DNA of 64,000 nt from positions 43,928,072 to 43,992,071 of the forward strand of contig NC_088714.1 in the NCBI RefSeq assembly GCF_963576615.1. The letters are read 5' to 3'. A program made the translations under genes and the position numbers. Shown here piece after piece: positions 20,742-63,990 of this stretch. The stretch comes from Watersipora subatra. Lineage: Eukaryota > Bryozoa > Gymnolaemata > Cheilostomatida > Watersiporidae. Below the pieces are notes generated by a model. The model saw only the letters and a program-made list of their open reading frames with translations. It was not told the DNA's origin and did no database searches. The first letter of the stretch is position 1. Each line of letters begins with the position of its first letter.

Positions 20742-21617
20742 AGGTTGACTAGCAACAAAATTTCCGTTACAGTTATTTGATATTAAAAGATTCACCATGT
20801 TTTACTCTGCTGTGTTGTAGGTGCCAAATATGTGGAAATGTGATTACAAGCTCTTAAAAGCTCAAAAACGAACAGAAAATCGCAGCCACACGAGACCGCC
20901 GTAGTTTGGATTCCCTTTCCAAAACGGCTCAAATGTGATGTAGTTGTGAGAAATGGTTTATGTTTACACTTTCTTGCAACCTTATTCGTAGAAATATTTT
21001 CACAAATATACTTTACGCATTCAATAAAACTATGTCTATTGTTCTTACGCGTCTGTTTTATCCTCATCGTAATGCTGTCACTTTTAGCAGTGATATCTAA
21101 TAACTTACCGTAAAAATTCGTTTAATTTTTTAGCCTTAGCTTGAAGGAGTACATATCATTGTCTGATAATTATGACGAGCCTGTTGGTCACTTGGGATAA
21201 TTGAAAAGCGCTGCAGAAATTATTTCCGAAGTATTGGGTCACATGATCAGATTACGACTTGCCGATTAGACCAGGCCGAAACAAAACTGTAAAGTAGTGA
21301 GCATCTATATTTGATACGGCGTCTTTGGTAAAACCCGAAGTGTTTGTCATAAACTAGTACTACGATAAGTTTTATATCGAGCTTTGTATTGGCCTTTCAA
21401 TTCACGTGAGAAGATACGTGACAAGACGATAACCAAATTTCGTGGCTACGTCATCGAAATAAAGAAATTCCAATCTACGGCGGCTTTTCGTTTTTGAGCT
21501 TTTAAGAGCTTGTAATCACATTTCCACATATTAAGCACTTACAACACAACAGAGTAAGACATGGTGAATCTTTTGATACCAAATAACTGTAATGTGAATT
21601 TTGTTGCAAGTCAACCT
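20742..21617. mobile_element. Non-autonomous Kolobok-like element, copy 1
   Basis: About 876 bp with long inverted ends. Left (A)GGTTGACTAGCAACAAAAT, right (minus) AGGTTGACTTGCAACAAAAT. Subterminal blocks such as 'ttatttggtatcaaaagatt' and 'gtgattacaagctcttaaaag' are mirrored at both ends. The left flank reads TTTAAGG, so one base is lost or changed there; the right flank is TTAA (21618-21621), which is shared with copy 2. Confidence 0.8.
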
Positions 21618-22021
21618 TTAAAGGTTGACTTGCAACAAAATTCACATTACAGTTATTTGGTATTAAAAGATTCGCCATGTCTTACTCTGTTGTGTAGTAG
21701 GTGCCAAATATGTGGAAATGTGATTACAAGCTCTTAAAAGCTCAAAAACGAAAAGCCGCCGTAGAGTGGAATCTCTTGATTTCGATGATGTATCCGCGGA
21801 TTTTGGTTATTGTCTTGTCCCGTGATGTTCTCGCGTGAATTGAAAGGCCAATAAAAAGCTCAATATAAAACTTATCGTAGCGATAGTTTATGAGAAACAC
21901 TTCGGGTTTTACCTAAGACCCCGTATCAAATATAGATGCTCGCTACTTTACAGTTTCAGCTTGACCATTCCGTCCAACGATTCAACGTACGTGTACATGT
22001 CTGAGTTGCGATCATAAAAAA

Positions 22022-23106
22022 ATGTCAAATTCTGAACAGTTAAGACCCTGGCGTTTCGAGCCTGACGCTCTATCTGAAGAAGATCCTCAACAGAATCAAA
22101 CCTCCCAGCAAGTAAGCACCGCCACTAGTCAGCTCTTATGTGCCAAGCTAGCAAGTAGTAATAGTTTTAGCTAGAGAGTGATAGAACGAATATTATTATA
22201 TAATTTACATATATGATTTTAGTAATGATAATTATCGCTTCATATTGCGAAAAAATAATTACAGATTTTTCTCGAATGACAACATTAACAATTTTAATCT
22301 AGTACTGCACTGATATACTGTTGGATAACATCGACCTGATGTATTAGCTATGGTTGCATAGACATATCTGTTCATTTCTTTAGGAGCTAATACCACCGGC
22401 TACAGAGTGGTGGGTCTGCAAGCGCTGACAAGACATGCCATCTCTTCCTGAATGTTTGTGCTGCCATGATGCTGAGCTTGTGCATCGTCTCCATGACCGC
22501 GGGGAGCATGAATGCCTGAGTATGCATCCTGGTGTGGATGAACTTGTGGCGCCTGCACCCCTTGAGTTGGGGTGGAATAATTACCTGCGATATCATAGTG
22601 AGTTGGATTTTCATTTAATGCCAACAACACCAAAGCTATGCTAATGTGTCAAGCATTATCTGCAATTCTTATGTTACACATTTAATGCATCGGTTGAACA
22701 CACATATTCTGAACTCGTGGAACACAAGGAGAACTGTTATATTTGGCTTGTACACTTACTACAGTAGAGAGTGTATTAGTTTTATGATTTTATTATATAA
22801 AGATCGAGATTATTTTGATGATCAGCAATTATTGTTTTTCAATAATTGTTTTGGTAGATAATCTATTCCCATTTGGAGAGCCATCACCAAATGCTCGGAA
22901 AAGGTTGTGTGCATACCGCAATCTTGTGTTTTGGCTAATGCTGCAAATCTTGTTTGCAAGTCTGCCAACTCTTCTTCATCATCTGTTGGTGGGAAAAGAG
23001 CCCGAATCTTAGACACCAAGCAGGCAGGTAGAGGCCGTCGCTCACCGCGACGAATTTGCCGCATAAGCCAAAACAAGCTTGCGGTATGCACACAACCTTT
23101 GTAACA
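22022..23106 (+). pseudogene. P2X7-type cysteine-rich cytoplasmic domain gene in the Kolobok-like element
   Basis: Three exon-like parts on plus. Exon 1, 22022-22111: MSNSEQLRPWRFEPDALSEE..., donor CAA|GTAAGC, phase 0. Exon 2, 22384-22597: ATEWWVCKR-stop-QDMPS, then PECLCCHDAELVHRLHDRGE and ECLSMHPGVDEL, donor ATA|GTGAGT. Exon 3 from 22858: EPSPNARKRLCAYRNLVFWL. The order WxCxxC..MP...ECxCC..., CxxxHPG, RxxAYRxxxxW is that of the zinc-binding C-terminal region of P2X7, which also occurs as a stand-alone protein in invertebrates. A TGA replaces an expected Cys codon in exon 2, and the domain's last third lies inverted on the other strand. The gene is therefore broken as assembled. Confidence 0.72.
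22903..23106. repeat. 50-bp inverted repeat enclosing an inverted coding segment
   Basis: The block 'aaggttgtgtgcataccgca' to 'ctgcaaatc' at 22903-22955 is repeated as reverse complement at 23053-23106. Between them the minus strand encodes RQIRRGERRPLPACLVSKIR and ALFPPTDDEEEL, which is the natural continuation of the plus-strand AYRNLVFWL reading. The segment has therefore been inverted, with its border duplicated. Confidence 0.75.
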
Positions 23107-23366
23107 ACATCCGTTGTAATGGACCTCACTCTCAGGCCGTGGGAAATTAGATCGGACTGGCATCACTTGAAGCCTTCCAGCTACATAGCGTTAGAGCTGG
23201 TGGTCTCTGTTGACTGCAAAGTAAAGAAAGTTACGACCAACAATCACTTTCACATTATTTGAATGAATTATTTAGCTAGATCAGCAACTTCATGTTTATG
23301 TATTGATAATTACTAAAAAATTTGGGTTTCTGTCAGGCTGTGAAGTAAAACCTGTCAAAGTTTTAC

Positions 23367-25077
23367 CTTGACAAGATGGCTGCTGACTATTAAACCGCAG
23401 CTCTGATCCACCATAGTGTAGGCCCCGTATAGTGCGCAATGCCCCGGACTATCGCATCTACTGTCACCTGCCAAATCAAGCTCCCAATCGATTGCTGCCA
23501 TCAATCCCTCGTTATGCAGGGTGTACTGCTCAGCAATACACTGTAAAATATTGTAAAACTTCATTATTCTCCTATATTAATTTGTATCATTATCATTAGT
23601 CTAAGAATGTAGAATCCTCTTCCCCCTTTTTGTGCTATATTATGATGAAGAATCAGAATTTTAAATTATAATATATTTCGCTTGAAGGATGACATATTTT
23701 CATTTCAAGAAAAAAATTGTTTCTAAATGCCGTTATCCAATTAGTGTGCCAAGCTTTTACTCACATTTTCCAAGTTTATGGGTAAATATTAACACTCACA
23801 CCATGTAAGTATTCTCTTTGTTGGTAGAGGCAAACGCTGTGGCTTGGTATCGCGATGTTCAGGAGCGACAGAAAATGGAAGTTCTGCGTAAGGCATCCGC
23901 CAAAAAAGAGTGATGCAGCTGCCAGCAGGGGGTTGATGACGTGAGCGCTGTTCACCCTGATAGTTGTTTCCCAAGTGTACGATTGGTGACAGGAGGCACA
24001 TGTAACCTTGAATTCTACCCATCCGCCTTCGCGCACCATCGTGAATGAGCAGGGGAGGGCGCAGGCGTGACAGTGAAATAGTCGCTGGAGTGCTGTCACA
24101 CTTACTATTATTTTCTCCTCTTTGAAGGAGGATTCGGGTCTGAAATCACAACACAATAGTTGACTTGCAATAAGATTTGTACAACATCATTTCCTGTGAT
24201 TATATCATATTTGCTTGATCAGAAAAAGAATAAATATATAGCCATGCAATCATGACACAGATTTTACAGATCCTTATCAGAATCTATGATATTGTAAACA
24301 TAAAATGTGAGTAATAACTCCATGGATATTTTTTATATTTTGTCAAGTTTGGTTAAGTTCAGCTCTATCTGACATGTAATTGGAGAGCGTTTGACGCTGG
24401 CCAACATAGCGCTCCAACTCTTCCTAGTCTTCAGTGGTTGGCACAAACTCTTCATCTAATACTAATAATAATCATCTAATAATATTAATATGCTATTAAC
24501 GATGATACCAGAAAATGACAATAACTATTTTATATAACATATCTATAAGTGAGTGGGTTTAAGAAATTTGGCGAAATTAATCGTGAAACTTATAACATTA
24601 TTTTATCAATTCTATATTAATATATTACGTTTTATACAGATAGATATGCAGTATGAATTAGTTTTGTTATTATAATAAGAATAATACACGTAATTAAAAA
24701 GATAAAATACTAATGATATCATATTACAATTAAATGACATTAATATTGTAATATTAAATATAGATTAATACAGTAGTATTAGGAGAATACCAAAAAAATA
24801 ACCCGAGTTACAACTACTAATACAAGTAGTTCATAAAATAAATTACTCACGTGCTTTGGTGATATGTGGAGTATGCAAACAGGTTAGAAAACATATCATC
24901 TTTGAAATGGCGAAAACAAAGGTAAGAGTAAGCAGGCGAATAAATAAAGTTTGTCACATCCAGCTTCACCCAGTTGCTCCACGCCCGGTGAAGGTCTGGT
25001 CTTTTCTCTGCTCTTGGCCAAAAAAAGGTGCTTCTCAGCTTGGCAGCTGCACAAACACTATGTGGCGCGTTAGACAT
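23367..25077 (-). pseudogene. Kolobok-like THAP transposase, C-terminally truncated
   Basis: Minus exons: 25077-24851 (THAP-like: AWSNWVKLD, then YLCFRHFKDDMF, matching the W and C-x2-HF-x2-D-x-F of THAP fingers; only one of the first two Cys is evident), donor CAC|GTGAGT; 24139-23802 (LFHCHACALPCSF, VTCASCHQSYTWET, PLLAAASLFFGG); 23540-23367 (LAGDSRCDSPGHCALYGAYT with a likely catalytic Asp, then LIVSSHLVK), donor AAG|GTAAAA. The last two resemble a known transposon-derived THAP protein family. The rest of the catalytic core is not found between 22000 and 23360. Confidence 0.65.
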
Positions 25078-25682
25078 TATGACAAATTAAAATTAACAAG
25101 TTTAATATGAGAAAGCGTGTTTGCTATTTGCGATAGATCAAACTTGAACTGAAACTAACATTATCTGATCATGTGACTTACAATTCCCGCCATATGGCGC
25201 GAACAATTTCTACAGCATTTTCCAAACATCATAGCGGACCAAAAGGCTCATCATTTTTATCAGAGGATGATATGCAATCGTTCAAGCTAAGTTAAAAAAA
25301 TTAAACATATTTTTATGCTATGTCTTGAGATATCAGTGCTCAAAGTTGCAGCATTACGATGCCGATAAAATAGACGCGTAAGACATGGTTTTTATCGCAA
25401 GAGTGAAGTATATTTGTGAAAATAGTTCGACGAATAAGGATGCATGAAAGTGTAAACATAAACCATCTCCCACACATACGTCACATTTTAGCCGTTTTTG
25501 GAAAACGAATCTAAACTAGGGCGGTCTCGTGTCGCTGCGATTTTCTGTTAGTTTTTGAGCTTCTAAGAGCTTTTAATCACATTCCCACATATTTGGCACC
25601 TACTACACAACAGAGTAAGACATGGCGAATCTTTTGATACCAAATAACTGTAATGTGAATTTTGTTGCAAGTCAACCTTTAA

Positions 25683-26008
25683 AGGTTGACTTGCAACAAA
25701 ATTCACATTACAGTTATTTGGTATCAAAAGATTCACCATGTTTTACTTTGCTGTGTCGTGGGTGCAAAATATGTGAAAATGCGATTACAAGCTTTTAAAA
25801 GCTCAAAAACGAAGGGATAATCGCAGCCATCGCAAAAACACCGTAGATTGGAATTCCTTTCCGAAACGGCTCAAATGGGACGTAACCGACCACGATAGCT
25901 TCTGTTTACACTTTCATGCAACCTCATTCGTCGAAATATTTTCACAAATATACTTCATGTATTCAATAAAACTATGTCTATTATTCTTACAAGTCTATTT
26001 CATCGTCA
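25683..26008. mobile_element. Kolobok-like element, copy 3 (left end only)
   Basis: Starts AGGTTGACTTGCAACAAAAT directly after the TTAA shared with copy 2 and follows the family sequence to 'ctatttcatcgtc'. It then switches abruptly to reverse-transcriptase coding sequence of the neighbouring retroelement. Its right end is not present in the window. Confidence 0.75.
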
Positions 26009-27585
26009 GGTCTGTACCTTTGTCCGGCAAAGCGAAGACAGGTGAAAACGGTTCTCAGTAGCTGGATGTGTTCTTTGAAAGTCTGGGATGTCATCAGCCA
26101 CTCATCCAAATAGATGCAGCTGCTTCCTTCACTGATCAGGTCTGCCATGATAGCTAATGCTAGTCTTGTAAAAGTAGATGGGCTACCTGAAATTCCTTGC
26201 GGCATGGTATTAAACGTGCAGCATCCGAATGGAGTGATGAAACCGGATTTTTCCCTCGAGTCTTTATGTAGAGAAACTTGAAATAATCCTGAACATAAAT
26301 CTATCGAGCTAAAATATTTCTTCCCATGCATGATCTCTATTGCGCTGTTGATTGAGGAAATGGACTGCTTTACTGTGGCAACGTTGAGTTTGCGGTAGTC
26401 TACGCAGAATCTCCAGTTGCCATCTTTCTTTCGTACTAAAACAACAGGTGATGTCCATTTGCCTGAGCTAGGGGAAATGAGATCTTTTTTGCATTTGATC
26501 AATCTGTTGTTTGATTTCAGCTCTTACTCTTACCGGTATGTTATATGGCTTGCTTCGTATTGGCATGGTACCTGGCAATATTTCCACAACGTGCTCTACT
26601 ATTGATGTTCGTCCGAGCTCAGTGATTCCTTCTCCTGCGATGTCTGAAAACTCATCTACGAAGTCTCTCAGCTCGTTGAATTGTACCTTCTTCAAATTCA
26701 TCTTTGAGATATCCAGCTGGTCACATGGAAAAGGGCGGAGCTTCTCCGGTTCTGCATGAGTTGTTGGCACGCTGAGCAATCGCAAGTCTTCATCTAAGCT
26801 TTCTATGCTTCCCACTATGGTGTCCTTCAGCTCAAAAGGTGTGTTGGTTGGGTTGATAATAGGATTATTATCGTCCCTTGAGCAACTCGGTTGGCTGATC
26901 TGCCAATTATCAGTCTTTTCAGAGTATCAGTCTTTCCTTCAAATAAGCATTCCTTTCCTTCATAGTCGCTATTCACGTTTGCTACAATTGCCATTTCTGT
27001 GAATGGTGCTACTTTGACGTTGTTGCAGACAAATGCGGAGCTAGTGGAGCAATTCTTTCCCATGGCGATGGCTGGTCCATCATTGATGTGAAGAGTACAT
27101 CTATTGAAATTGTAAGTAATTGTTCCAAGTTTGCTCATTAAGTCTGTTCCTAGAATTACCTCATGTGAGATACCATTTGCTATACAAAACCGATGTTTTT
27201 CATTCCATTCGCCTCTGATGTTCAAAATCATGTTGATTGTCCAATGATTTTTAAAGTGTTTTTGGTTACCCCTGTAGCTGTAAGGTCGCTTGGTTGCAAG
27301 TGTAGATTCAATCCGCGAGCAAGTCTTGTGTTGATCAGGCGTTGATCAGGTGTTGACCGGGTGGCTCCTGCGTTGACGAGTGATGTGCAGATAAATCCGT
27401 TGATCTTTACATCTATGGTGGCTCTTCTACAATCTTCTCTTGAGGCGCTGGTAACATCGTTAACCTGTTTGGGATGTTTTCGTGGAGTTTGTATATTGTA
27501 TGTTTGCGAAAAGTCCTCATTCCATGCCTTCAAACATTCACGCTCTTCGTCAGTTACTCCAGGTCGTGAATATTTGGGTGCGTAA
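26009..27585 (-). pseudogene. Ty3/gypsy-type protease - reverse transcriptase fragment
   Basis: Minus strand, reading downward: a retropepsin-like region (27430-27050; active-site motif altered to LVNAGATRST, later VILGTDLM), a linker (VEHVVEILPGTMPIRSKPYN), and an RT finger/palm region (PSSGKWTSPVVLVRKKDGNW, FCVDYRKLN, GFITPFGCC, IYLDEWL). The frame is broken in at least three places and stops at the junction with Kolobok copy 3; RNase H and integrase are absent. The catalytic Asp of the protease is Asn, and the second Asp of the RT YxDD box is Glu. It follows directly, in frame after one stop codon, from the envelope-like ORF. Confidence 0.85.
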
Positions 27586-27590
27586 GGTTT

Positions 27591-29864
27591 TTATGATGGA
27601 GGCGCACTGTTTAAGTCTTCTAATGATGATTCGATTTCTGAGTCCTCTGGTGGTGTGGATGGGTTGATATCAAACTCATTTTCGAATTCGTCTTCTCCTT
27701 CTGGCATATCGGTTAGTTCCAGTGCTGTCTCTATGCCTAAAGCATTCACCGTTGTACCCTTTCTTGCTCTGTACACCAAGCGTCCTTTGGTGATTCCTCA
27801 AACGACCGCAGATAAAACCATTAACGTGAGAATGATGTTACAAGCGAATGTCCATAGCTCATAACCTGAGGCTACGTGTCCTCCGAATAGAAAGCTGAAT
27901 AGTGATGAGCCAAATAGTTTCTCTCTGCTCTTTATGGTGCTGTAATGTAGGGTTTAAAGGTGGTTTGTGACGATTCCCATAGTTTTCAGTACTCTTTTCT
28001 GTCTGTCTAAGGTAGATAGAAGTTTGTTCAGTCCTCCGTAATCGTCTGTGTTTGACCATCCTAAAACGTGGGCTCTGCTGAATATGGTTTCTTGTATTTG
28101 TAGAGGCTGGCTGCCGAAGTTGATGCCCGGAATGCTCAAGTTGGTGGCCTCCCTTATTGGCAAAATCGTTCCGTTTACAAAGTACTCAGAAATTTTACCC
28201 TTCAGCATCATCAATGTGCCTCTTTTCGTCTTGCAATTGACTGTATAAGTGTCTGGGTGTATCACGTTGTCTTTCGAATTAAAATATCCAATCTTTTCTG
28301 CACCGGCTATTTTGATCTTCATCGGAATAAATTCTGTGCAATTATTCTTTTCTATCGGCAGTACTTCGTATTGACTGTAGTTAAAGTTTGACTTGCAACA
28401 AAATTCACATTACAGTTATTTGGTATCAAAAGATTCACCACGTCTTACTCTGTTGGGTTGTAGGTGCCAAATATGTGGAAATGTGATTACAAACTCTTAA
28501 AAGCTCAAAAACGAAAAGCCGCCGTAGATTGGAATCCGTTTATTTCTCTGACGTAGCCATGACAGTTTGGATATTGTCTTGTCACCTGATGTTCTCACGT
28601 GAATTGAAAGGTCAATACAAAGCTCTATATAAACTTATATCGTAGCACTACTTTATGACAAACACTTCGGGTTTTACCAAAGACGCCGTATCAAATATAG
28701 ATGCACGCTACTTTACAGTTTTGTTTCGGCTTGAACTAATCGTCAAGTCGTAATCTGATCGTGTGACCCAATACTTCGAAAATAGTTTTTGCAACATTTT
28801 TTGATTATCACAAGTGACCAACAGGCTCGTCATGATTATCAGACAATGATATGCACTCCTTCGAGGTAAGATTAAAAAGTTAAATGAATTTTTACGGTAA
28901 GTTATAAAATATCACTGCTAAAAGTGACAGCATTACAATTACGATAAAACAGACGCGTAAGAACACTAAACATGGTTTTATTGAATGCGTGAAGTATATT
29001 TGTGAAATATTTCGACCAATGAGGTTGCATGAAAGTGTAAACAAAAACCATCTACCACAACTACGTCACATTTGAGTCATTTTGGAAAGAGAATCCAAAC
29101 TATGGCGGTCTCGTGTGGCTGCGATTAACTGTTCGTTTTTGAGCTTTTAAGAGCTTGTAATCACATTCCCACATATTTTGCTCTTACAACACAACCGAGT
29201 AAGACATGGTGAATCTTTTGATACCAAATAATTGTAATGTGAATTTTGTTGCAAGTCAACCTTTAAGTAAAGTACAAGTGTGAACTTGAAGAAAACTGGG
29301 ACCTGCTGTCGCAACAACGTTTGCCTTGTCCAGTAAATATCTTGTGCTGAGTGTTGGGTGCTCCCTTAATAGCATGGTAATTGTTTGTAGAATTTCAGCT
29401 AGGTTATGGCAGACGTAGAAGGAAGCCGACCAAAAAAGGTCTTGAGTCATCTTAGTTTGCTGGTAGGCAAGTGACTGTAGCATTGAGTTGAGTAAGGAGG
29501 CATCTCGACCCACTGCTGATATTCTCGTCTTTAACGTATCATTCAGCGTGACATCCGTCAGTGGTGTAAGAAACTTGACTATAAGGCCTTGGTCAAAAAG
29601 CGAAACGTCAGAGTTGTTACAGTCCTTCTGCAAATTCAGTCCTGAGTCATAGAATGTTAGAGCTAAATCTCGTTTCTTGAAGACAAAATGTGCATCGAAA
29701 AATTCTCCTTCTTCGTTGAACCATGGTTTATACTCGCAGGTTTCTACTAGGTCCAGATCCCACATGAGTATTGATCCATCGTTTAGTTCGCAATGCCTGT
29801 TGTTGTAATTACAGTGACTGACATTTCCGGCAGTACTTTCAAATTTTTCAGATTCGCGTTTCAT
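27591..29864 (-). pseudogene. Envelope-like glycoprotein ORF of a retroelement, interrupted
   Basis: Minus strand in two main parts: 29864-29263 and 28380-27591, separated by Kolobok-like copy 4. The parts are in frame with each other when the insertion and one TTAA are disregarded. The sequence is Cys- and Trp-containing with N-glycosylation sequons. Near its end is a hydrophobic segment (about 27870-27790), followed by a basic stretch and an acidic tail of about 50 residues rich in Glu/Asp/Pro. This layout fits a type I membrane glycoprotein of an errantivirus-like element; I cannot name the glycoprotein class. Frame breaks also occur near 27950. The frame above 29864 continues with stops and a shift to about 30060. 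Confidence 0.6.
28385..29262. mobile_element. Non-autonomous Kolobok-like element, copy 4, with perfect TTAA duplication
   Basis: 878 bp, ends AGTTTGACTTGCAACAAAAT and (minus) AGGTTGACTTGCAACAAAAT, flanked by TTAA at 28381-28384 and 29263-29266. It is nearly the same length as copy 1. It splits the envelope-like frame at one codon, so the empty site can be inferred exactly. Confidence 0.92.
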
Positions 29865-37439: not shown

Positions 37440-38672
37440 GTGTATGTCACAATTTCCATTTCCGTAACATTTACCTATTTTATTTCCATATTATTTCCAT
37501 TTCCATAACATTTCCATAATTCATTTCCATATTATTTCCATTTCCATAACATCACCTTACTTCATTTCCATATTATTTCCATTTCCATAACATTTCCATA
37601 TTATTTCCATTTCCATAACATTTCCCTACTTCATTTCTATATTATTTCCATTTCCATAACATTTCCATAATTCATTTCCATATTATTTCCATTTCCATAA
37701 CATTTCCATATTATTTCCATTTTCATAACATTTCCCTACTTCATTTCTATATTATTTCCATTTCCATAACATTTCCATAATTAATTTCCATATTATTTCC
37801 ATTTTCATAACATTTCCATAATTCATTTCTATATTATTTCCATATTATTTCCATTTCCATAATTCATTTCCATAATTCATTTCCATATTATTTCCATTTC
37901 CATAACATTTCAATAATTTATTTCCATATTATTTCCATTTCCATAACATTTCCATAATTCATTTCTGTATTATTTTCATTTCCATAACATCTCCTTACTT
38001 CATTTTCATAATATTTCCATTTCCATAACATTTCCATATTATTTCTATTTCCATAACATTTCCCTACTTCATTTCCATATTATTTCCATTTCCATAACAT
38101 TTCCATAATTCATTTCCATATTATTTCCATTTCCATAACATTTCCATAATTCATTTCCATAATTCATTTCCATATTATTTCCATTTCCATAACATTTCCA
38201 TAATTCATTTCCATATTATTTCCATTTCCATAACATTTCCATAATTCATTTTCATATTATTTCCATAACGTTTCCCTACTTCACTTCCATATTATTTCCA
38301 TTTCCATAACATTTCCATCATTCATTTCCATAGTATTTCCATAACATTTCTTTACTTCATTTCCATATCATTTCCATTTCCTTAATTCATTTCCATTTCC
38401 ATAATTAATCTCCATATTATTTCCATTTCCATAGCATTTCCATAATTAATTTCCATATTATTTCCATTTCCATAACATTTCCCTATTTCATTTTCATATT
38501 ATTTCCATTTCCCTAACATTTCCATAATTCATATCTATATTATTTCCATTTCTATACCATTTCCATATTTCTAAAATAAAATTTCTATATCCATTTCCAT
38601 AAAATTATGGAAATATTTATGTTTATGGAGATGGAAAAGTAGACATTTCCATAATATGTTTAGCGATCCCTG
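37440..38672. mobile_element. hAT-type element filled with a TTTCCAT satellite
   Basis: Ends CAGGGATTACG and (minus) CAGGGATCGC, flanked on both sides by GTAGGTAT (37432-37439 and 38673-38680). An 8-bp duplication and a CAGGG terminus are the hAT signature. Apart from about 30-70 bases at each end, the whole 1.2-kb interior is a tandem array. Confidence 0.85.
37460..38620. repeat. TTTCCAT-based satellite array
   Basis: Higher-order units of roughly 40 bases, such as ATTTCCATATTATTTCCATTTCCATAACATTTCCATAATTC, repeated with small variation over about 1.15 kb. It ends in a short inverted segment (ccatttccataaaattatgg). Confidence 0.95.
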
Positions 38673-40115: not shown

Positions 40116-43028
40116 CTATCTTTCTGGAGGTCGCCTGTCTCTAATTGGTCTGGTATTGCCCACTGCAGTATTTTCGTTGTCATGATCACTGTCACTCTCA
40201 GTATCTGAGTCTACGGAACTATTGTCATTTTTACAGATGTTGAGATTATCAAAATCAAATTCAACTTCGACAGCATTGTCACTTGACACTCTATCACTGC
40301 CCGTATCCTCGCCATTACAATCAGCTAACCGTATTTCTGAAATGTGCCCGTTTGTGCCATCAACCTCTAAGACTACATCAGATACCAACGCAGTTAGTGT
40401 TCCTTTTGCCCATACAGTAGTACATTTAGCATGCACTGGCTTAACATATACTGTGTCACCAATTTTGTACGGGTTTCTTAACGCTCCACGTGAAAATCTT
40501 TGTGGCTCTGCAACAACGTCAGGATTTCTTACTGTGTAGAAGTATAGCATTTGCGAAGGTACAATACCTCGCCTGTTTGGGGTATTGTTGTACCAAAACA
40601 CCATTCTGTTAACCTCGTTTCCTGAACGCGCAGCCATTATTTTAATTGTCCTACGGTTACGTTCGAGAATGCCATTACCAGATGGCCTGTAAGCGCAACT
40701 TAACAAATGATTTACGTTCCATGTTTTTAGGATGCTAGACAACTGCGCGCTTTTGAAGCATGGACCGTTGTCAGAAAGCAACTCTTGTGGGGGACCCCGC
40801 TCCTCAAATATGCGTACCAACTGTGCTATTACAGAGTTGGCTGTCTCATCTCTCAGTTTTAACCATATTGCAAATCTGCTAGGGCCGCAATCCAAGATGG
40901 TCAAATAAGGTATTTGGCCCACATGTGTGATGTCAACAGCAAGTCTATGCCACACCTTTTCGACTTCCAAATTTCCTCTCTCCCATCTCACAGGTGAAGG
41001 ATCAATTTGTTTGCAGATTTGACACACTTTCACAGCCCTTTCAATCACATCTTTTGAGGCTCTGTCACCAAACCTCTGATTAGCTAAGCAACTCATCTTG
41101 TCAACTCCTAAATGGTGAACTTGATGCATGTTATATATTTCTTCATCAATACTTGAAACTTCCTCCGCTGCTACGCCCACACATGATACTAGTGGTTTCA
41201 GCCACTTTTTGTTCACCCTCGTTAAAACATCAGCACGATTGTCCGCTGACTTGACCAAGGACATTTGTAGAGTGATGCCATATTCTTCTACCAATTGCGC
41301 AATAACCCCAAGCCGCCTTTTGACTATCATTTCTGAAAATCCACTGACTTTGGGGCGATGGCTTTCTGTGATAATGGAATTAACCCAGTTATTCACTGAT
41401 AATGAGTCAGTGACAATCGTAGCTTGTTTTACTCCCCACTTTATTGCAAGATTTAATCCTTTAAGCACGGCTTCAAGTTCAGCTACATTTATATGCATAC
41501 TGTCATCAATTTTCTTTAGCCATGATGCATCTTCTACAATGCTACCTTCCATTTCTATGCACGCACCAATAGCTATAGAGCTCGCATCACACCAGACCTT
41601 GCAACACTCATCTCTATTCACAGACCATTTGCCTTGCACTGGGTCATGTCTTGTTACCCTATTTAGTGTTTCATCTAACATCTGCAGCACTTCTTTTGCT
41701 ATTGCATCATCCCACTTGCCATCAGCAGCACACCGCTTCATGTAGCTGCATGCGACTCGTAGCAAGCCAGCTACTGGGTAGTGACCAATCAGTTTACCAC
41801 ACATAGAAAACAAATCTCTTTTTGTACGAATGCTTTCTACTGTTGGCACAGCTGAGTCACGTTGCCATGTACATATACCTTTTTTACTGATTGTCACGCG
41901 AAGCCCTAGAACACGCGCTTCACGTAAATCGACAGGCTCTTTTGTGACTAGACCAAACTTTAACAAGTGGCTGCGCACAACTTCGACTGGCACTACTGAC
42001 TTATTTACTAAAATATCATCAATATAAAGATCAGTACCAGCAGCAACCGTAGGATCAAGTGACAACACTGTTGACAATATTTTTGACATAATCTTAGGCG
42101 CTGCATTGAGACCAAAACCTAGTCTAGTCATGACATACAATGTTCCATGGAACATAACAGCTTGAAATCTCTGCAAACTACCATCAACATGCAGTTGTAA
42201 ATATGCTTTCATTAAGTCTAACATGCAAGCATCACTGCCTAACTTACGCCACTTGCGGAGTTTGTCTTGGCATACTGCGGTGTCCAGACCAGGATGACTG
42301 CTGACGTACCCATTCAGTTCTCTGCTATAATCCATTACAGGTCGTACCTTTGTCTCTTTATTAGGTTGTGTAGCTGCCAACAATGGAATAATGCCAGTTA
42401 CAGGTCCATGAAGCGCTTCTCGGTGTGGCTGCAGCCATCCGTTTTCTATCCATTGCATAACCTGTTTTTCATATTCTTCTCTGACGGCATCATTTATAGC
42501 GTATTCTCTACATGTATTGGACAGTATAGGCTCTCTACTTAACCACTTCCAAGCAACTGTCCACTTGTGACCATCAAATTGTGCTTTAAAGTCTCTATCA
42601 TCTATAACTATCGGCGGCTGCTGGTCATCATTATGACTGACAGGACTAGCTTTGTTACGTAGCATCACGCCAACTGTTCTTAACTGTCTTGCTCCAAAGA
42701 GTACACCTCTATTTTTATCTATAGATACCCCGCCTAGTTTTGCAATGCCATCTATTCCCAGTATCATCAGGCAACCACTTACTAGCTTCAGAGCAATCAT
42801 ACACTGAACTGTAACTTTACAAGAGTGATCCAGTTCTATGTCAAGAGTTGTCTCACCCTTGCATGTAGTGATATGTCCATTTAACATCATTATTTGTCGC
42901 TGAGGACCTTTCAGTAGCAATCCTAACTGCTGTGCCCACTGTTGTTGTATAATCGATTGCTCACAACCGCTATCCACCAATGCTTTTATCTTTGTGCCTT
43001 GTACCCATACATAAACAAATGGTAGCAC
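40116..43028 (-). CDS. pol: Retrotransposon Pol: protease - RT - RNase H - integrase
   Basis: A 970-codon open frame with no stop. Protease: ALVDSGCEQSI (D19). RT: VMDYSRELN, MLDLMKAYLQL (D271) and LYIDDIL (D337/D338). RNase H: VWCDASSIAIG (D481), AELEA (E518), VTDSLS (D541), NRAD (D600). Integrase: HH at 638-639 with CQIC at 669-672, VDITHVG (D699), LSDNGPCF (D753), GNGILERNRR (E789). All key catalytic residues are present. Order PR-RT-RH-IN is Ty3-type, but the RT motifs are divergent from common gypsy clades. The listed start is GTG; translation is probably by frameshift from Gag, since the frame is open upstream across the gag stop. Confidence 0.92.
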   Translation of the reverse strand: MLPFVYVWVQGTKIKALVDSGCEQSIIQQQWAQQLGLLLKGPQRQIMMLNGHITTCKGETTLDIELDHSCKVTVQCMIALKLVSGCLMILGIDGIAKLGGVSIDKNRGVLFGARQLRTVGVMLRNKASPVSHNDDQQPPIVIDDRDFKAQFDGHKWTVAWKWLSREPILSNTCREYAINDAVREEYEKQVMQWIENGWLQPHREALHGPVTGIIPLLAATQPNKETKVRPVMDYSRELNGYVSSHPGLDTAVCQDKLRKWRKLGSDACMLDLMKAYLQLHVDGSLQRFQAVMFHGTLYVMTRLGFGLNAAPKIMSKILSTVLSLDPTVAAGTDLYIDDILVNKSVVPVEVVRSHLLKFGLVTKEPVDLREARVLGLRVTISKKGICTWQRDSAVPTVESIRTKRDLFSMCGKLIGHYPVAGLLRVACSYMKRCAADGKWDDAIAKEVLQMLDETLNRVTRHDPVQGKWSVNRDECCKVWCDASSIAIGACIEMEGSIVEDASWLKKIDDSMHINVAELEAVLKGLNLAIKWGVKQATIVTDSLSVNNWVNSIITESHRPKVSGFSEMIVKRRLGVIAQLVEEYGITLQMSLVKSADNRADVLTRVNKKWLKPLVSCVGVAAEEVSSIDEEIYNMHQVHHLGVDKMSCLANQRFGDRASKDVIERAVKVCQICKQIDPSPVRWERGNLEVEKVWHRLAVDITHVGQIPYLTILDCGPSRFAIWLKLRDETANSVIAQLVRIFEERGPPQELLSDNGPCFKSAQLSSILKTWNVNHLLSCAYRPSGNGILERNRRTIKIMAARSGNEVNRMVFWYNNTPNRRGIVPSQMLYFYTVRNPDVVAEPQRFSRGALRNPYKIGDTVYVKPVHAKCTTVWAKGTLTALVSDVVLEVDGTNGHISEIRLADCNGEDTGSDRVSSDNAVEVEFDFDNLNICKNDNSSVDSDTESDSDHDNENTAVGNTRPIRDRRPPER

Positions 43029-43036
43029 CGAGTTTT

Positions 43037-43693
43037 TTACATTGGGGGAAGAGCCGGTGCATACACTTTCCCACTGGCATTTCCCTGCATCTGAAAACAG
43101 TTTTTCTGGATGTGACCAAGTTTATTACACCGGTAGCACCTGACCTCACGGCGCTGCCAATGCTGCCTCCTTTTCCCAGCAGCACATGAGGTCGTTTCGC
43201 CATTTCCTGCAGTTATCATCATGCGGGCCCTGTTCACTAACTCCGAAAGACCCATGTCTTCTACAGAAGCAATAGATTTTAGTTGTGTAGCCACTTCTGT
43301 AGGTAATCCTGCCATGAATGCACATTTAAGCAATGGGTTAGGTTCTGATTGTCCCATCAAAGTTGTTAAACATTTGAGATCTGCCAGATATACATCTACA
43401 GCTTCACCATCTCTTAAAGCTCGGTTTTGCAGCTGAATATAAGCACTGAACCTGTCTACACTAAAAGCTGTCAACAAAACTGCCTTTAGTTTAGGGTATT
43501 CTTCCTTGATATCATCTTCTAAATGTTTATACACGGCAAATGCTGCTCCTGACAAGAATAGTGGTAAGAAGGTTGTGAGATCGTCCACTTTTTGAAGCTT
43601 GGCCACTAACTCTAGCTTGTCCACCCAGACACTGAAATCACCGCTTTTAACATCCTCATATGTCTTGATAAGCTCGGATACCTTCACTGACAT
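43037..43693 (-). CDS. gag: Retrotransposon Gag with CCHC zinc knuckle
   Basis: 218 residues from ATG at 43693. A helical capsid-like region (FLSGAAFAVYKHLEDDIKEE, FMAGLPTEVATQLK) precedes a single knuckle, CYRCNKLGHIQKNC, near residue 185. Gag ends TAA nine bases before the listed pol start. Pol is in the -1 frame relative to gag and stays open back through the knuckle region. No textbook heptameric slippery site was identified before the stop. Confidence 0.92.
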   Translation of the reverse strand: MSVKVSELIKTYEDVKSGDFSVWVDKLELVAKLQKVDDLTTFLPLFLSGAAFAVYKHLEDDIKEEYPKLKAVLLTAFSVDRFSAYIQLQNRALRDGEAVDVYLADLKCLTTLMGQSEPNPLLKCAFMAGLPTEVATQLKSIASVEDMGLSELVNRARMMITAGNGETTSCAAGKRRQHWQRREVRCYRCNKLGHIQKNCFQMQGNASGKVYAPALPPM

Positions 43694-43722
43694 TTCTAGT
43701 GTAGTTTAGAGCCGAAATAGCT

Positions 43723-46483: not shown

Positions 46484-49400
46484 CTACAAGAGAGACAACT
46501 TCATAAGTAACTTATTATCAAAAACAATGCCATATTTGTAGATGAGCACTATTTACATAATATGTCATAAATTATTCTTATTAAGGTATGCGAGCGTAAA
46601 CAATTTTTGGGTTAAATTGTATGAAATACATCATGTTAAAGAAATCTTTGTTGCTCTGTTAAACATTTGCATGATGACATTATATAATATGGTATCTTAT
46701 CTTGTTTGTTCCGCTTCGTTACTGGCCTAGAATTACACAAGCAGTAAGTAGACGGCTGCATTACGCAATCAGCTCGCTTTTTTCATAATCACCATGCATA
46801 AATAGCTAGAAATTTAATAATTATATTTGGTTTATGACTCACGATGTTCTAGAAATCTCTCTTTTTGGATACAAGATTATAAAGAGCCTAGTTCGGTTTT
46901 TGACTTTGTTTGAATGACTTACATTAACCAATAAATGTGATATAAGTCAACATAAGCTATTAAAGTTTCATTTATTCAGCACAGGAGGACATGAGTAAAG
47001 GAACTCGGGAGTGGAACAACATTGATTTGTGACAGTTCACACCTATTCATAATAGTTGGTTTCCCATATTCATGCATCATGTCAGCCAAGAATAACGACT
47101 ACATTCAGAATACGGTTTGTGAAGATAACTGTCATAAACGACCTTTTGCCCCCCAGATTTTCAAATATCATTTTTATTGGTTTGTAAATTGTTACAGCAA
47201 AACTTCCACTTGTTATTACCTTACCACATTACTAAATGTGGTAAGGTAATAATAAATCTGTTTCAACACCCATAGTAGTTTCTAACATTTATAGTCTTTC
47301 AAGGCAGTTCTGTTCTGTGAAAAGAACAAAAAGGCTAGTAGGAATTAAAAAGGAAAGTGTTGACAAATTAAATAACTAATTGTCATCAAGTAAAAAATAA
47401 CAAGAATAACAAAATACTGACAAATAAAAAGCGTAAAACATGCAAAGCAACGAAACGAACAGTGTTTACTATGTCAGTTAAAATTTCACCTAGTCTAAAG
47501 TTGTGTGAGTTTATACCAGAACAATTTGTTGGAGTTGTGTCTCCACTGAGAGAGTTGGAATGGCTCTAGCCTGTTTATGATTTGAAATACGTTTTTGCAA
47601 AGACTTCACACCAAACCTACTCCAACTCCACAAAATGAGTTAGCTTTTTAACTAATGAAATACAGTATTGATATTCACTCCATTTGCTTGTATTTTTGAC
47701 ACTATTAGCATTACGAGATATGATTGGTCAATTCCATGTTGTTCTCTATCAAGGGTAGCTGCCACAAATGGACAAGCATAGTGTGTAGCATTTCACCGAT
47801 TTTGTGTCGTCAACTAGAACAAAACCGTTTTTAGCAACTATTTTTCATTTTATACCAGATTTTGTTGGATGTGAAAGCAACGCCAATAAATCATCTTGAT
47901 GTAAATGCACCTTAAGTTATAGTAAACCAAATTAGGTAACTGTGTGAAGTGATAACTGTGTAAATTAGGTAACTGTGTGAAGTGATAACTGTGTAAATTA
48001 GGTAACTGTGTGAAGTGATAACTGTGTAAATAAGGTAACAATGTGATGTGATAGCTGTGTAAATTAGGTAACTGTGTGATGTGATAACTGTGTAAATTAG
48101 GTAACTGTGTGAAGTGATAGCTGTGTAAATTAGGTAACTATGTGATGTGATAGCTGTGTAAATTAGGTGACTGTGTGAAGTGATAGCTGTGTAAATTAGG
48201 TAACTATGTGATGTGATAACTGTGTAAATTAGGTGACTGTGTGAAGTGATAGCTGTGTAAATTAGGTAACTATGTGATGTGATAACTGTGTAAATTAGGT
48301 AACTATGTGAAGTGATAGCTGTGTAAATTAAGTAACTATGTGATGTGATAACTGTGTAAATTAGGTGACTGTGTGAAGTGATAGCTGTGTAAATTAGGTA
48401 ACTGTGTGATGTGATAGCTGTGCAAATTAGGTAACTATGTGATGTGATAGCTGTGTAAATTAGGTAACTGTGTGATGTGATAACTGTGTAAATTAGGTAA
48501 CTGTGTGAAGTGATAGCTGTGTCAAATTAGGTAACTATGTGATGTGATAGCTGTGTAAATAAGGTAACTGTGTGATGTGATAACTGTGTAAATTAGGCGA
48601 CTGTGTGATGGGATAACTGTGTAAATTAGGTAACTATGTGAAGTGATAGCTGTGTAAATTAGGTAACTATGTGATGTGATAACTGTGTAAATTAGGTGAC
48701 TGTGTGAAGTGATAGCTGTGTAAATTAGGTAACTATGTGATGTGATAACTGTGTAAATTAGGTAACTATGTGAAGTGATAGCTGTGTAAATTAGGTAACT
48801 GTGTCAAGTGATAGCTGTGTAAAGTAGGTAACTGTGGGATGTGATAACTGTGTAAATTAGGTAACTGTGTGAGTTATACACCTTAACTTCAAAGTACTTG
48901 GTAGAACAGTAAAATAATGTATCTGTATTTCAGCTTTTACTATAATTCAGCTACTAAACTTTGTCAAAAAACAAAAAAACGAAGAAAACCCTTATTGGAA
49001 CCTGAAGCAGAAGCTTCCGGAAAAGCAGAGCAGAATAACACTTATTTGTTTTCCTATACAAAAAACAGGCTGACTGCGAGTTGTAATTAAAATAAAATGG
49101 TTTCTTATAAAAAATATTTTATAACCTTAAATATTAACTATCAATTAAAGCTGAAAAGAAATAGTTTGCGATTTTTTCCAGCAAAAATAATTTTGTTTAA
49201 CTGAAGGCAAACATACGGCTCTGACATTTTACAATGCTGATATGTGTTGCTACTTGTTCGAAAAACTTTACAACTTATGACATTTTAGTTTCACCCGCAG
49301 AATTTTAAAGAAATCACTATTTCATTAATCACTAATCCTCTATTAGCAAGTTTTTAATTATGAATGTTTAACAGACTTACCCGTAAGTCACCGTAGAACT

Positions 49401-52400
49401 TATTGCTTGCAATGTCTTCATCTACCAGGCCATCCCCATCATCATCTTTGCTGTTCTCCAATTCCTCATCAACTTTATTGTCACAGTCATTATCAAGGCC
49501 ATCATTATTCTCCACATTTTTGTTAGGATTACAGTAGACACCTGCCAATAGTACAGTACACACCTGCTAATAGTACAGTAAGAGTCCTTCACTAGTACAG
49601 CTAACACCCTCTAATAAGACAATGAACACCCTTCAAAACTAACCCTTCAAAAATGCCTGCCAAAAATACAGTAGGTATGTAATAACAATACAGTAAACCC
49701 CTTTCGACAATACAGTAAACTAATAACTAAAAATAAATTAATAACTAAAATTACAGTAAACACCTGCCAGCATGATATAGTAGACAAAATAGTTACAGTA
49801 AGTGTCACTTTTGTACGGAACATTCCTTATAGGAAATCCAGCATTGCTAACCTGTATTGGCCATCCGAACTGGAGAAATAGCTTTGATATTGCCAGTTTC
49901 ATCTGTGATGTAACCATAGACTACTGTAGTCGGCCTTTTGCTGTATATTTCATATGTGCCATTAAACACCTCATAATGAAGCTGTATAAAATCCTCTGCA
50001 AAAATAAACATTAAATAAACTGGAATTGTCTTTTACGAGATAAAAGAGAACACAAATCCATGAATATATAATCACCTACTATAAATCTCCATGGAGGCCT
50101 TTTGAGAAGGAAACTTGTTGGCTGCCACATTATTTATAAGTATTTCATCTGCTAATGATCTGCTGACTTGTATATACAGGTGGTGGGCGGAGTTACTATC
50201 AGCAACAAGCATATTGAAGATATTTGGAAACTGACCAGTCGAAGGTAAAATAGTCACCAAAGTTTCATCTAAAACAAAGAAACCAGATACAACGGAGCTG
50301 AGAGAGATACTCATTCTGGATATGTTCACATAAGCAATTATTATTATAGTTGTATTCTACTAAACTAGTGAATGTACTTCAACAATTTTAAAATTTCATT
50401 CATAGAGCATTACAGACGCTGTTTAACATTAGTGTTCCTTTGCAAATATTATGGTATGGACTGTAAAATACTTCTGTGAATTATTAAAAGCAGAATTTAC
50501 GAATCTGCAAATTTTTAGAACAACAGTTTCTGTGTCACCCTTGCCGTAATGTACCAAACAGCGGGGTGTATCCTCGTGGTGACCTATTAAGTTGGTACCG
50601 GCAGTGTAGTTCAAGGCTTCCCCATTGGGAGTGCTCGCACCTCGAAAGGGTGTTGTTTACAGGAGTGCAGAAACAATCGTAAAAATGAAGAAAGTGTATT
50701 TGTCATAGCAACAACTTGCGGATGTAAATCCAATTTTTTATCTCTTCCATACATCAAAAATAAATATCATAACACCATCAATCCTAAAAATGATCTGCAC
50801 ATTTCATTCAGCCACAAGGAGCTACGTTTTGATCAACGATAGCAGGCAAGGGACAGGAAACTGTCAAAGATCATAAAGAGAGTTGTTTTTTATATGTTAG
50901 TACTGTGTGCAAACATTAGACTCCTTAGAATGACCTTCCAATGATACGTATATTGTTTTCATATATTCCAAATATGTCTGTTTTTAATGATGTTTTGAAC
51001 CTTATATTGTGTATTCAAAACAAGGGATTCGATATTACTTCATCAGTCGTAGGGGGTTCAGCGATGAATATAACTAAGCAAGCAGGGGCGAATCTACTGT
51101 GGTGCACATGGTGCAAATGCATCACTCTAAATATGGCAAAAAAATCCAATAAAAAGATTTAAAATTCAGCGAAGAATGTGAATAGGGAAGTGGTAGTGTA
51201 GCCATGAAGTCGTGTATTCTGTGCTGCATTGTCAAGACCTTCAAATTTACTTTCTATTTCTTAAAACTGCAACACCTTACTCATGCATTTACTACTACAT
51301 ATCAAACAGTTTTGCTTACCTCTCATATCCCCTAAAGACGGTCATCAACTTACACTATTTGTCAGCCATCTTAACATATACTTACTGATGAACAAGCCAA
51401 CCAATACAGCTGAATTACATTTGATTACACCAGACATGGTGAGACTCAGATTTCTAGCAGGGAATTGTATCCTCTTTCCGTTTACTTGGCAGATTGTGTC
51501 TCCTACATAACAATTACAAGTTCTTTGAGATGAGAGAGGACAATTCTGAAGTTTGCGCATAGTCAATTCACCGTTAGTTGCAGATCAAGTATAAAGAAGG
51601 ATTCAGAAGATGCAGTTTTCATGACTGCATGAATGTGGATGAATTTTCCGTCTACCTTTGTACTCTACTATCACCTGATTGCAGTTGTTATATTGTAACC
51701 TTTTGGTGACAGCTGTTAAATTAAATCATTAAATTGTCAGCAGATTACATCAATTTCAAGTTGTCTATTATAGTGGGAAGATGCTAACCTTGATCCAAAG
51801 TAGTGAGCTTCGAAGATGGTTTTTTGAAGTTTGGCTAATTATGCACAAAGAGCCACGTGGTGCGGCGTTAGTGGGCTTTGCACGTAATGTTTGTGATTAG
51901 TGAGTAGATAATTAGTCTATTCCATATGTATTTAAGCAAAAGGAAACAATTATCTGCACGTGTTGAGCCAATGAAAGACATGTTTACAGCCACACTTAGT
52001 TTAGTTTCGCTTTGCAAAATGTTACTCTTGGTTACAGTTTCTTTTTTGCAATGACCAGCCATGTCAGACCTATCACAGCTATGGAGGTGTCACCAGCCAT
52101 GTCAGACCTATCACAGCTACTGAGATGTCACCAGCCATGTCAGACGCATCACAACTACGGAGGTGTCGCCAACCATGTCAGATGCATCACAACTACGGAG
52201 GTGTCACCAGCCATGCCAGATCCATCACAACTACGGAGGTGTCACCAGACATGTCAGACGCATCACAGCTACGGAGGTGTCACCAGCCATGTCAGACGCA
52301 TCACAGCTACGGAGGTGTCACCAGTCATGTCAGACCCATTCCCAACTACGGAGGTGTCACCAGCCATGTCAGACCCATTCCCAACTACGGAGGTGTCGCT

Positions 52401-63310: not shown

Positions 63311-63990
63311 AAACAGATGGGGAACAGAGAGACTGGGAACAGAGAGACTGGGAACAGAGAGACTGGGAACAGAGAGACTGGGAACAGAGAGACTGGGAAC
63401 AGAAAGACTGGGAACAGAGAGACTGGGAACAGAGAAACTGGAAACAGAGAGACTGGAAACAGGGATACTGGGAACAGAGAGACTGGGAACAGAGACTGAG
63501 AACAGAGAGACTGGGAACAGAGAGACTGGGAACAGAGAGACTGGGAACAGAGAGACTGGGAACAGAGATACTGGGAACAGAAAGACTGGGAACAGAGAGA
63601 CTGGGAACAGAGAGACTGGGAACAGAGAGACTGGGAACAGAGAGACTGAGAACAGAGAGACTGGGAACAGAGAGACTGGGAACAGAGAGACTGGGAACAG
63701 AGAGACTGGGAACAGAGAGACTGGGAACAGAGACTGGGAACAGAGAGACTGGGAACAGAGAGACTGGGAACAGAGAGACTGGGAACAGAGAGACTGGGAA
63801 AAGAGAGACTGGGTACAGAGAGACTGGGAACAGAGAGACTGGGAACAGAGAAACTGGGAGCAGAGAGACTGGGAACAGAGAGACTGGGAACAGAGAAACT
63901 GGGAACAGAGAGACTGGGAACAGAGAGACTGGGAACAGAGAGACTGGGAACAGAGAGACTGGGAACAAAGACTGGGAACAGAGAGGCCAA
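63311..63990. repeat. 15-bp minisatellite (about 45 copies)
   Basis: Unit GGGAACAGAGAGACT with sparse substitutions and occasional 3-bp losses (cagagactggg). Long Ser/Leu/Pro-Val frames on minus and a Gly-Asn-Arg-Glu-Thr frame on plus exist only because 15 is divisible by 3. It runs to within about 10-30 bases of the window end, so total length may be slightly larger. Confidence 0.97.

Follow-up and report, generated by a model that had tools for sequence, protein, structure and literature searches.

A probable dead Kolobok transposon with a P2X7-related KolX gene in the bryozoan Watersipora subatra

The DNA considered here is a 64-kb stretch of the genome of the bryozoan Watersipora subatra (contig NC_088714.1), which is referred to in its entirety as the window. 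Positions 21622-25678 form a single 4057-bp DNA transposon with TTAA flanking it on either side. Remnants of two convergent genes are found within it: KolX on the plus strand, which encodes a cysteine-rich domain resembling the C-terminal zinc domain of P2X7, and a THAP/DDE transposase on the minus strand. The element is very probably a Kolobok transposon copy that is dead and has been rearranged internally. Its features are given below, with related predicted proteins cited by number (P0001 and so on). Statements taken from PMC9587614, PMC7016195 and PMC6004289, here and throughout, refer to the accessible parts of those papers.

The element and its two genes

21618-21621, no strand: left target-site duplication TTAA, exact, common to the neighbouring derivative at 20742-21617
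21622-21755, plus: left terminal inverted repeat, 134 bp, first bases AGGTTGACTT, 95.5% identical to inverted 25545-25678
22022-22111, plus: KolX exon 1, 30 codons, MSNSEQLRPWRFEPDALSEEDPQQNQTSQQ, with a GTAAG donor after it; corresponds to the beginning of P0001, P0002 and P0003
22384-22597, plus: KolX exon 2, encoding cysteine clusters 1 and 2 of the P2X7-type zinc domain; 81% to P0001, 90% to P0003
22858-22949, plus: start of KolX exon 3, NNLFPFGEPSPNARKRLCAYRNLVFWLMLQI, with acceptor present and matches to P0001 and P0006; then interrupted by an inversion
22939-23100, minus: remainder of KolX exon 3, inverted, FWLMRQIRRGERRPLPACLVSKIRALFPPTDDEEELADLQTRFAA; matches P0001 119-163 and P0006 19-82
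23109-23200, minus: transposase piece reaching the second catalytic Asp region (SITTD), with two stops; matches P0007 and P0008 and joins the inverted KolX piece
23367-23540, minus: transposase piece carrying GDSRCDSPG, the motif of the first catalytic Asp, supported by an alignment of relatives; matches P0007, P0008, P0009 and P0010
23800-24135, minus: transposase piece with zinc-ribbon-like cysteines; 93.75% to W. subatra P0007 over 112 amino acids
23828-23913, plus: possible alternative last KolX exon, (K)ANAVAWYRDVQERQKMEVLRKASAKKE and a stop, after an acceptor AG; antisense to the transposase, 89% to P0003 residues 104-130
24850-25086, minus: decayed THAP-like DNA-binding domain of the transposase (PF05485, E=0.0023, 19.1 bits, cut-off 23.9)
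25545-25678, minus: right terminal inverted repeat, 134 bp, last bases AAGTCAACCT
25679-25682, no strand: right target-site duplication TTAA, exact, common to the neighbouring half element

The proposal of the initial annotation that 21622-25678 is one TTAA-bounded 4-kb element is borne out by these exact duplications and by the inverted repeats, whose AGGTTGAC ends are likewise exact. TTAA followed by the first 22 bases of the end was matched seven times in the window when up to three mismatches were allowed, and in none of 100 shuffles. Kolobok elements are recognised by a 4-bp TTAA target-site duplication, which is present here, and by 5'-RR...YY-3' termini (PMC9587614), to which the AG...CT termini of the element conform.

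For KolX exons 1 and 2 and the start of exon 3, the reading frame and the splice sites agree with predicted W. subatra proteins. Exon 2 encodes the peptides WWVCKR*QDMPS, PECLCCHDAE and ECLSMHPGVDEL, and exon 3, from 22858, encodes NARKRLCAYRNLVFW. These are the four plus-strand peptides that had been reported to follow the order known for P2X7, and they do lie in gene order; however, the minus strand, within 23100-22939, encodes the final portion of the P2X7-like domain, FWLMRQIRRGERRPLPACLVSKIRALFPPTDDEEELAD. Furthermore, the two dots with which the first peptide had been written, WWVCKR..QDMPS, conceal an in-frame stop codon at 22426-22428, located at the third Cys of the relatives, a zinc cysteine. 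A Trp occupies the position of the relatives' first Cys. The P2X7 ZCD pattern consists of seven or eight zinc cysteines in three clusters; the window copy departs from it, with one of the three cysteines retained in cluster 1 and cluster 3 inverted, and P0001 keeps all three clusters.

The arm at the inversion junction is duplicated (22900-22930 versus 23070-23100, 94% identity), and an uninterrupted version of KolX is present in P0001, P0002 and P0006. Given that exon 3 is intact in these relatives and that the inverted tail is accompanied by a duplicated arm, the window copy was evidently broken by an inversion that duplicated its junction. A different ending is seen in P0003 and P0004, which finish in an ANAVAWY tail. 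The window reads the same tail at 23830-23910 on the plus strand, inside the transposase piece at 24135-23800, and two W. subatra gene models, P0003 ("isoform X2") and P0004, use it as an alternative last exon.

That a THAP-type transposase remnant lies on the minus strand, as had been noted, is upheld, with a THAP piece that is weak by itself and the closely matching piece at 23800-24135. All of the transposase pieces are matched by P0007-P0010, except for most of the THAP piece; a THAP domain is usual in Kolobok transposases (PMC6004289). The superfamily is defined by a DDD/E transposase with a C/DxxH motif between the second D and E. The window copy retains the first-D and second-D pieces and stops there, its frame continuing into the inverted KolX arm; the part beyond the second Asp is present in the W. 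subatra relative P0008, which shows TTDRH, DAWH and a possible E. Pfam found no family in the frame of the first-Asp piece (23358-23576, minus) or in the frame at 23792-24145 (minus), which differs from that of the transposase piece there. The stretch at about 24400-24486 (minus) was considered as a further transposase exon and dropped, with no relative confirming it.

The DNA itself shows the ends of the element with their TTAA duplications, what is left of both genes, a KolX tail turned round by inversion, and a transposase that lacks everything past the second Asp; neither KolX nor the transposase can be made whole from this copy. Since its ends are intact, an intact relative could still mobilise it.

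The pairing of the two genes is not limited to the window. P0003, P0004 and P0007, which are clusters of predicted Watersipora proteins, each tie both genes together, so the association recurs outside this copy; this recurrence was judged through predicted proteins. In addition, P0007 carries the same junction of truncated transposase and inverted KolX, SITTDVVTKVVCI, as the window does, and thus the rearrangement is common to at least one other copy. The contigs given for P0001-P0004 have four different lengths, as expected of a mobile gene. These results support the view that the domain belongs to a gene of a Kolobok-type transposon, rather than to a host exon between separate elements.

Relationship of KolX to the P2X7 C-terminal domain

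Homology between the cysteine-rich domain of KolX and the C-terminal zinc domain of P2X7 (the "ballast" domain) is supported by sequence comparisons. A search with the Pfam profile P2RX7_C (PF20478; gathering score 23.5 bits) had been named in the initial annotation as a check. The window copy did not reach the cut-off (E=0.0058, 17.0 bits), but P0001, its closest relative and also from W. subatra, clearly did (E=3.4e-9, 37.3 bits). Fifteen relatives were scanned, a set that excludes P0005, P0018, P0022 and P0024. The cut-off was passed by six: P0001, P0006 (24.1), P0012 (24.1), P0014 (24.8), P0020 (28.0) and P0021 (26.8). The other nine scored below it: P0002 (21.3), P0003 (18.5), P0004 (19.8), P0013 (20.0), P0015 (23.3), P0016 (14.5), P0017 (19.6), P0019 (20.2) and P0023 (18.9). 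The identification of KolX consequently rests on the relatives, because the window copy by itself is sub-threshold. No Pfam family was found in the exon 2 frame, in the joined 117-amino-acid string or in the frame at 22825-23190 (minus) that holds the inverted tail.

The relatives in turn connect the window to P2X7. When P0001 was compared with the window by tblastn, the match had E=1.4e-36; the best value over 100 shuffles each of P0001 and P0007 was 0.014. A profile built from the relatives and run against PDB sequences placed P2X7 in the first four of five matches listed, and P2X7 also occupied the first 14 of 24 rows in a structural search. As direct phmmer searches missed P2X7, the profile of relatives is needed for the PDB match. 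No relative was found in the viral contigs that were scanned with P0001. A second, divergent KolX-like protein of W. subatra, P0013, has 205 amino acids, 35% identity to P0001 and WCKCENC and ICC clusters, which suggests that there is more than one KolX family in this species.

Neighbouring copies and other features of the window

20742-21617, minus: 876-bp derivative with the two ends of this family but no genes, abutting the 4-kb element at one TTAA
25683-26008, minus: half element of about 326 bp with one end only, 84% to the 876-bp derivative, and continuing into a piece of Gypsy-like reverse transcriptase
28385-29262, plus: 878-bp derivative, likewise without genes, with both ends present and TTAA on either side, 89.8% to 20742-21617 over 879 columns

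The two 0.88-kb copies are deletion derivatives of the family and were presumably moved by an intact relative; in the 876-bp copy, the left duplication has the sequence TTTA. Copies of the element lacking the gene had been named beforehand as evidence that would count against an association of KolX with the transposon. Such copies do exist, but they were rejected as a refutation, as both 0.88-kb copies carry both ends. At 21618-21621 and at 25679-25682, elements stand end to end with one TTAA between them, and the two outer elements (20742-21617 and 25683-26008) share their orientation; the end-to-end arrangement suggests that elements inserted into the TTAA of a copy already in place. The three consecutive elements also form large palindromes, with arms of 204 nt (92%) and 147 nt (88%).

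Elsewhere in the window, a reverse transcriptase domain (PF00078, E=1.1e-19) lies at 25990-26523 (minus), beside the half Kolobok end; the term "Gypsy-like" for it is a reading only. A retroelement at 40119-43705 (minus) contains an open frame of 1001 amino acids with aspartyl protease, RNase H-like and integrase (PF00665, E=1.1e-12) domains, and a frame upstream of it has a CCHC zinc knuckle. Long tandem arrays are located at 37452-38571, 47929-48872, 52054-52397 and 63320-63985; one is rich in ATTTCCAT, and units of 33, 38 and 15 bp are seen.

Weighing the readings and comparison with known systems

Several results weigh against the assignment to a Kolobok transposon with a P2X7-type domain. 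Ends were searched for within the 64-kb window, and no second full-length copy was seen there as DNA. The transposase is poorly recognised by profiles: the THAP piece lies below its cut-off, and so does the piece at 23800-24135 (minus) with the "Mutator" profile PF20700 (20.8 bits, cut-off 26.5). Joining the pieces does not raise the scores (Mutator 19.0, THAP 17.5 bits). Among the relatives, P0009 and P0011 pass the PF20700 cut-off and P0007, P0008 and P0010 do not; Pfam transposase families were found neither in P0007, which gave only an Elf1 zinc ribbon at 14.8 bits, nor in P0008, which gave none. On the KolX side, besides the sub-threshold P2RX7_C score of the window copy, Pfam found no family in single open frames of the region, and P2X7 was absent, up to E=10, from direct phmmer searches of PDB with P0001 or the window KolX as query. 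The best Foldseek match had E=0.047, with none at 0.001 or better. A first AlphaFold model, from five close sequences, had a predicted local distance difference test (pLDDT) score of 42 and was too poor to use, and a second, from 18 rows, was only moderate (mean pLDDT 53, with 49 of 163 residues at 70 or above).

The failure of the window copy, of its single frames and of the direct PDB searches to reveal P2X7 might be taken to mean that a run of cysteines in decayed DNA resembles P2X7 by chance. This is extremely improbable, given the P2RX7_C match of P0001 with its intact cysteine clusters, the top rank of P2X7 in both the profile and the fold searches, and the distance of the tblastn match from the shuffles. 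A host gene with a P2X7-type domain could instead have been merely flanked, or recently captured, by unrelated elements. Such a history is compatible with the same-ended, gene-less elements that abut the 4-kb element or lie close to it (the 876-bp copy on the left, the half element on the right and the 878-bp copy 2.7 kb further right), and because these neighbours have no genes, the ends alone are no proof of co-mobility. However, the ends of 21622-25678 make up one inverted pair with one pair of TTAA, pieces of KolX and transposase are joined in the predicted W. subatra proteins P0003, P0004 and P0007, and Kol0 Kolobok elements have been described with the same pair of genes (PMC9587614). 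A host origin is thus very unlikely. The proposal that the P2X7-type domain lies inside a Kolobok-like transposon, which was made in the initial annotation, is sustained by the P2RX7_C matches of the relatives, the profile and fold searches and the joined gene models.

It could also be postulated that the rearranged form, with its truncated transposase and a KolX whose last exon is antisense-derived, is a working subfamily that makes new proteins, such as a transposition repressor. P0007, with the truncated-transposase/inverted-KolX junction, is listed with 15 member sequences and 1 contig, and the antisense last exon is common to P0003 (1 member sequence, 1 contig) and P0004 (6 member sequences, 2 contigs). 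But all three are database gene models, and both genes of the window copy hold stops; this possibility is considered improbable. A more specific version, a shade less probable still, is that a rearranged Kolobok has spread in this bryozoan lineage making two altered proteins, a transposase cut at the second catalytic residue and half a KolX with a tail newly encoded antisense to the transposase gene, which may inhibit transposition of the element that makes it. Decay and prediction artefacts most likely account for both oddities, the inverted tail of KolX and, in the gene models, the last exon read from the antisense strand.

For an intact relative of this Kolobok element, a mechanism may be suggested from what is known of the superfamily. 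The transposase would bind the element ends through its THAP domain, excise the element and insert it at TTAA by cut-and-paste. By the same analogy, KolX is probably a zinc-stabilised protein that would serve as an accessory to the transposition complex.

The initial annotation had further suggested that, should the association be general, elements of this type could explain how the domain came to be scattered among animals as stand-alone or fused exons and how a P2X receptor acquired it. This explanation is already in print. Kojima & Bao (2022) describe a Kol0 lineage of Kolobok that encodes KolX together with a DDD/E transposase. They report a similarity between KolX and human P2X7 476-595, derive P2X7 from the fusion of a P2X4-like gene with KolX and propose that Nanor is a domesticated KolX, stating that the Kolobok link of the domain had not been pointed out earlier (PMC9587614). 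At most, then, the bryozoan host and the rearranged form are new, and a first record is not claimed. The element gives independent support, from a bryozoan, to the published conclusion that the tail domain of P2X7 is one of Kolobok transposons. It also calls for caution, as a stand-alone protein that looks "P2X7-like" in an invertebrate gene set can be the product of a transposon.

Among known systems, P2X7 itself (PF20478; Rump et al. 2020) shares with P0001 the order WCxC..C, LCC...C, AYR..FW, LPxC...IR..FP. Unlike P2X7, the window gene has no P2X channel part, two of its first three cysteines are lost, and its last cysteine is on the opposite strand. Nanor and the other stand-alone animal proteins with this domain, described by Rump et al. 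(2020; PMC7016195), are mostly short and carry the same domain at the C-terminus; they were handled there as host genes, whereas the window gene sits within a transposon. KolobokP, a composite-like group with a His-Me finger nuclease, is likewise a member of the Kolobok superfamily with two genes on opposite strands and a bryozoan host (Membranipora). However, it has that nuclease and long terminal direct repeats, and the window element has KolX and its own inverted ends: the 876-bp derivative and the half derivative flank it in the same orientation, yet each junction shows TTAA and an end that belongs to the element itself. No nuclease family appeared in the frames scanned with Pfam, no nuclease profile having been run by name.

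The closest system is Kol0 (Kolobok-1_XT type, with KolX and a DDD/E transposase). Shared features are the TTAA duplications, RR...YY ends, a putative THAP-like domain, a KolX with the P2X7 ballast domain and the transposase motifs GDxRCDSPG (in the window and its relatives) and TTDRH and DxWH (in the relatives only). The ballast similarity of the second gene is seen through the relatives, the window copy being sub-threshold. The window copy differs in being decayed, in lacking the end of the transposase and in its inverted KolX tail, and it has a bryozoan host. In the accessible part of PMC9587614, vertebrates, annelids, cnidarians and sponges are named as hosts of Kol0, and Bryozoa are named for KolobokP, not for Kol0; the W. 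subatra element thus adds a host group to those named there for Kol0.
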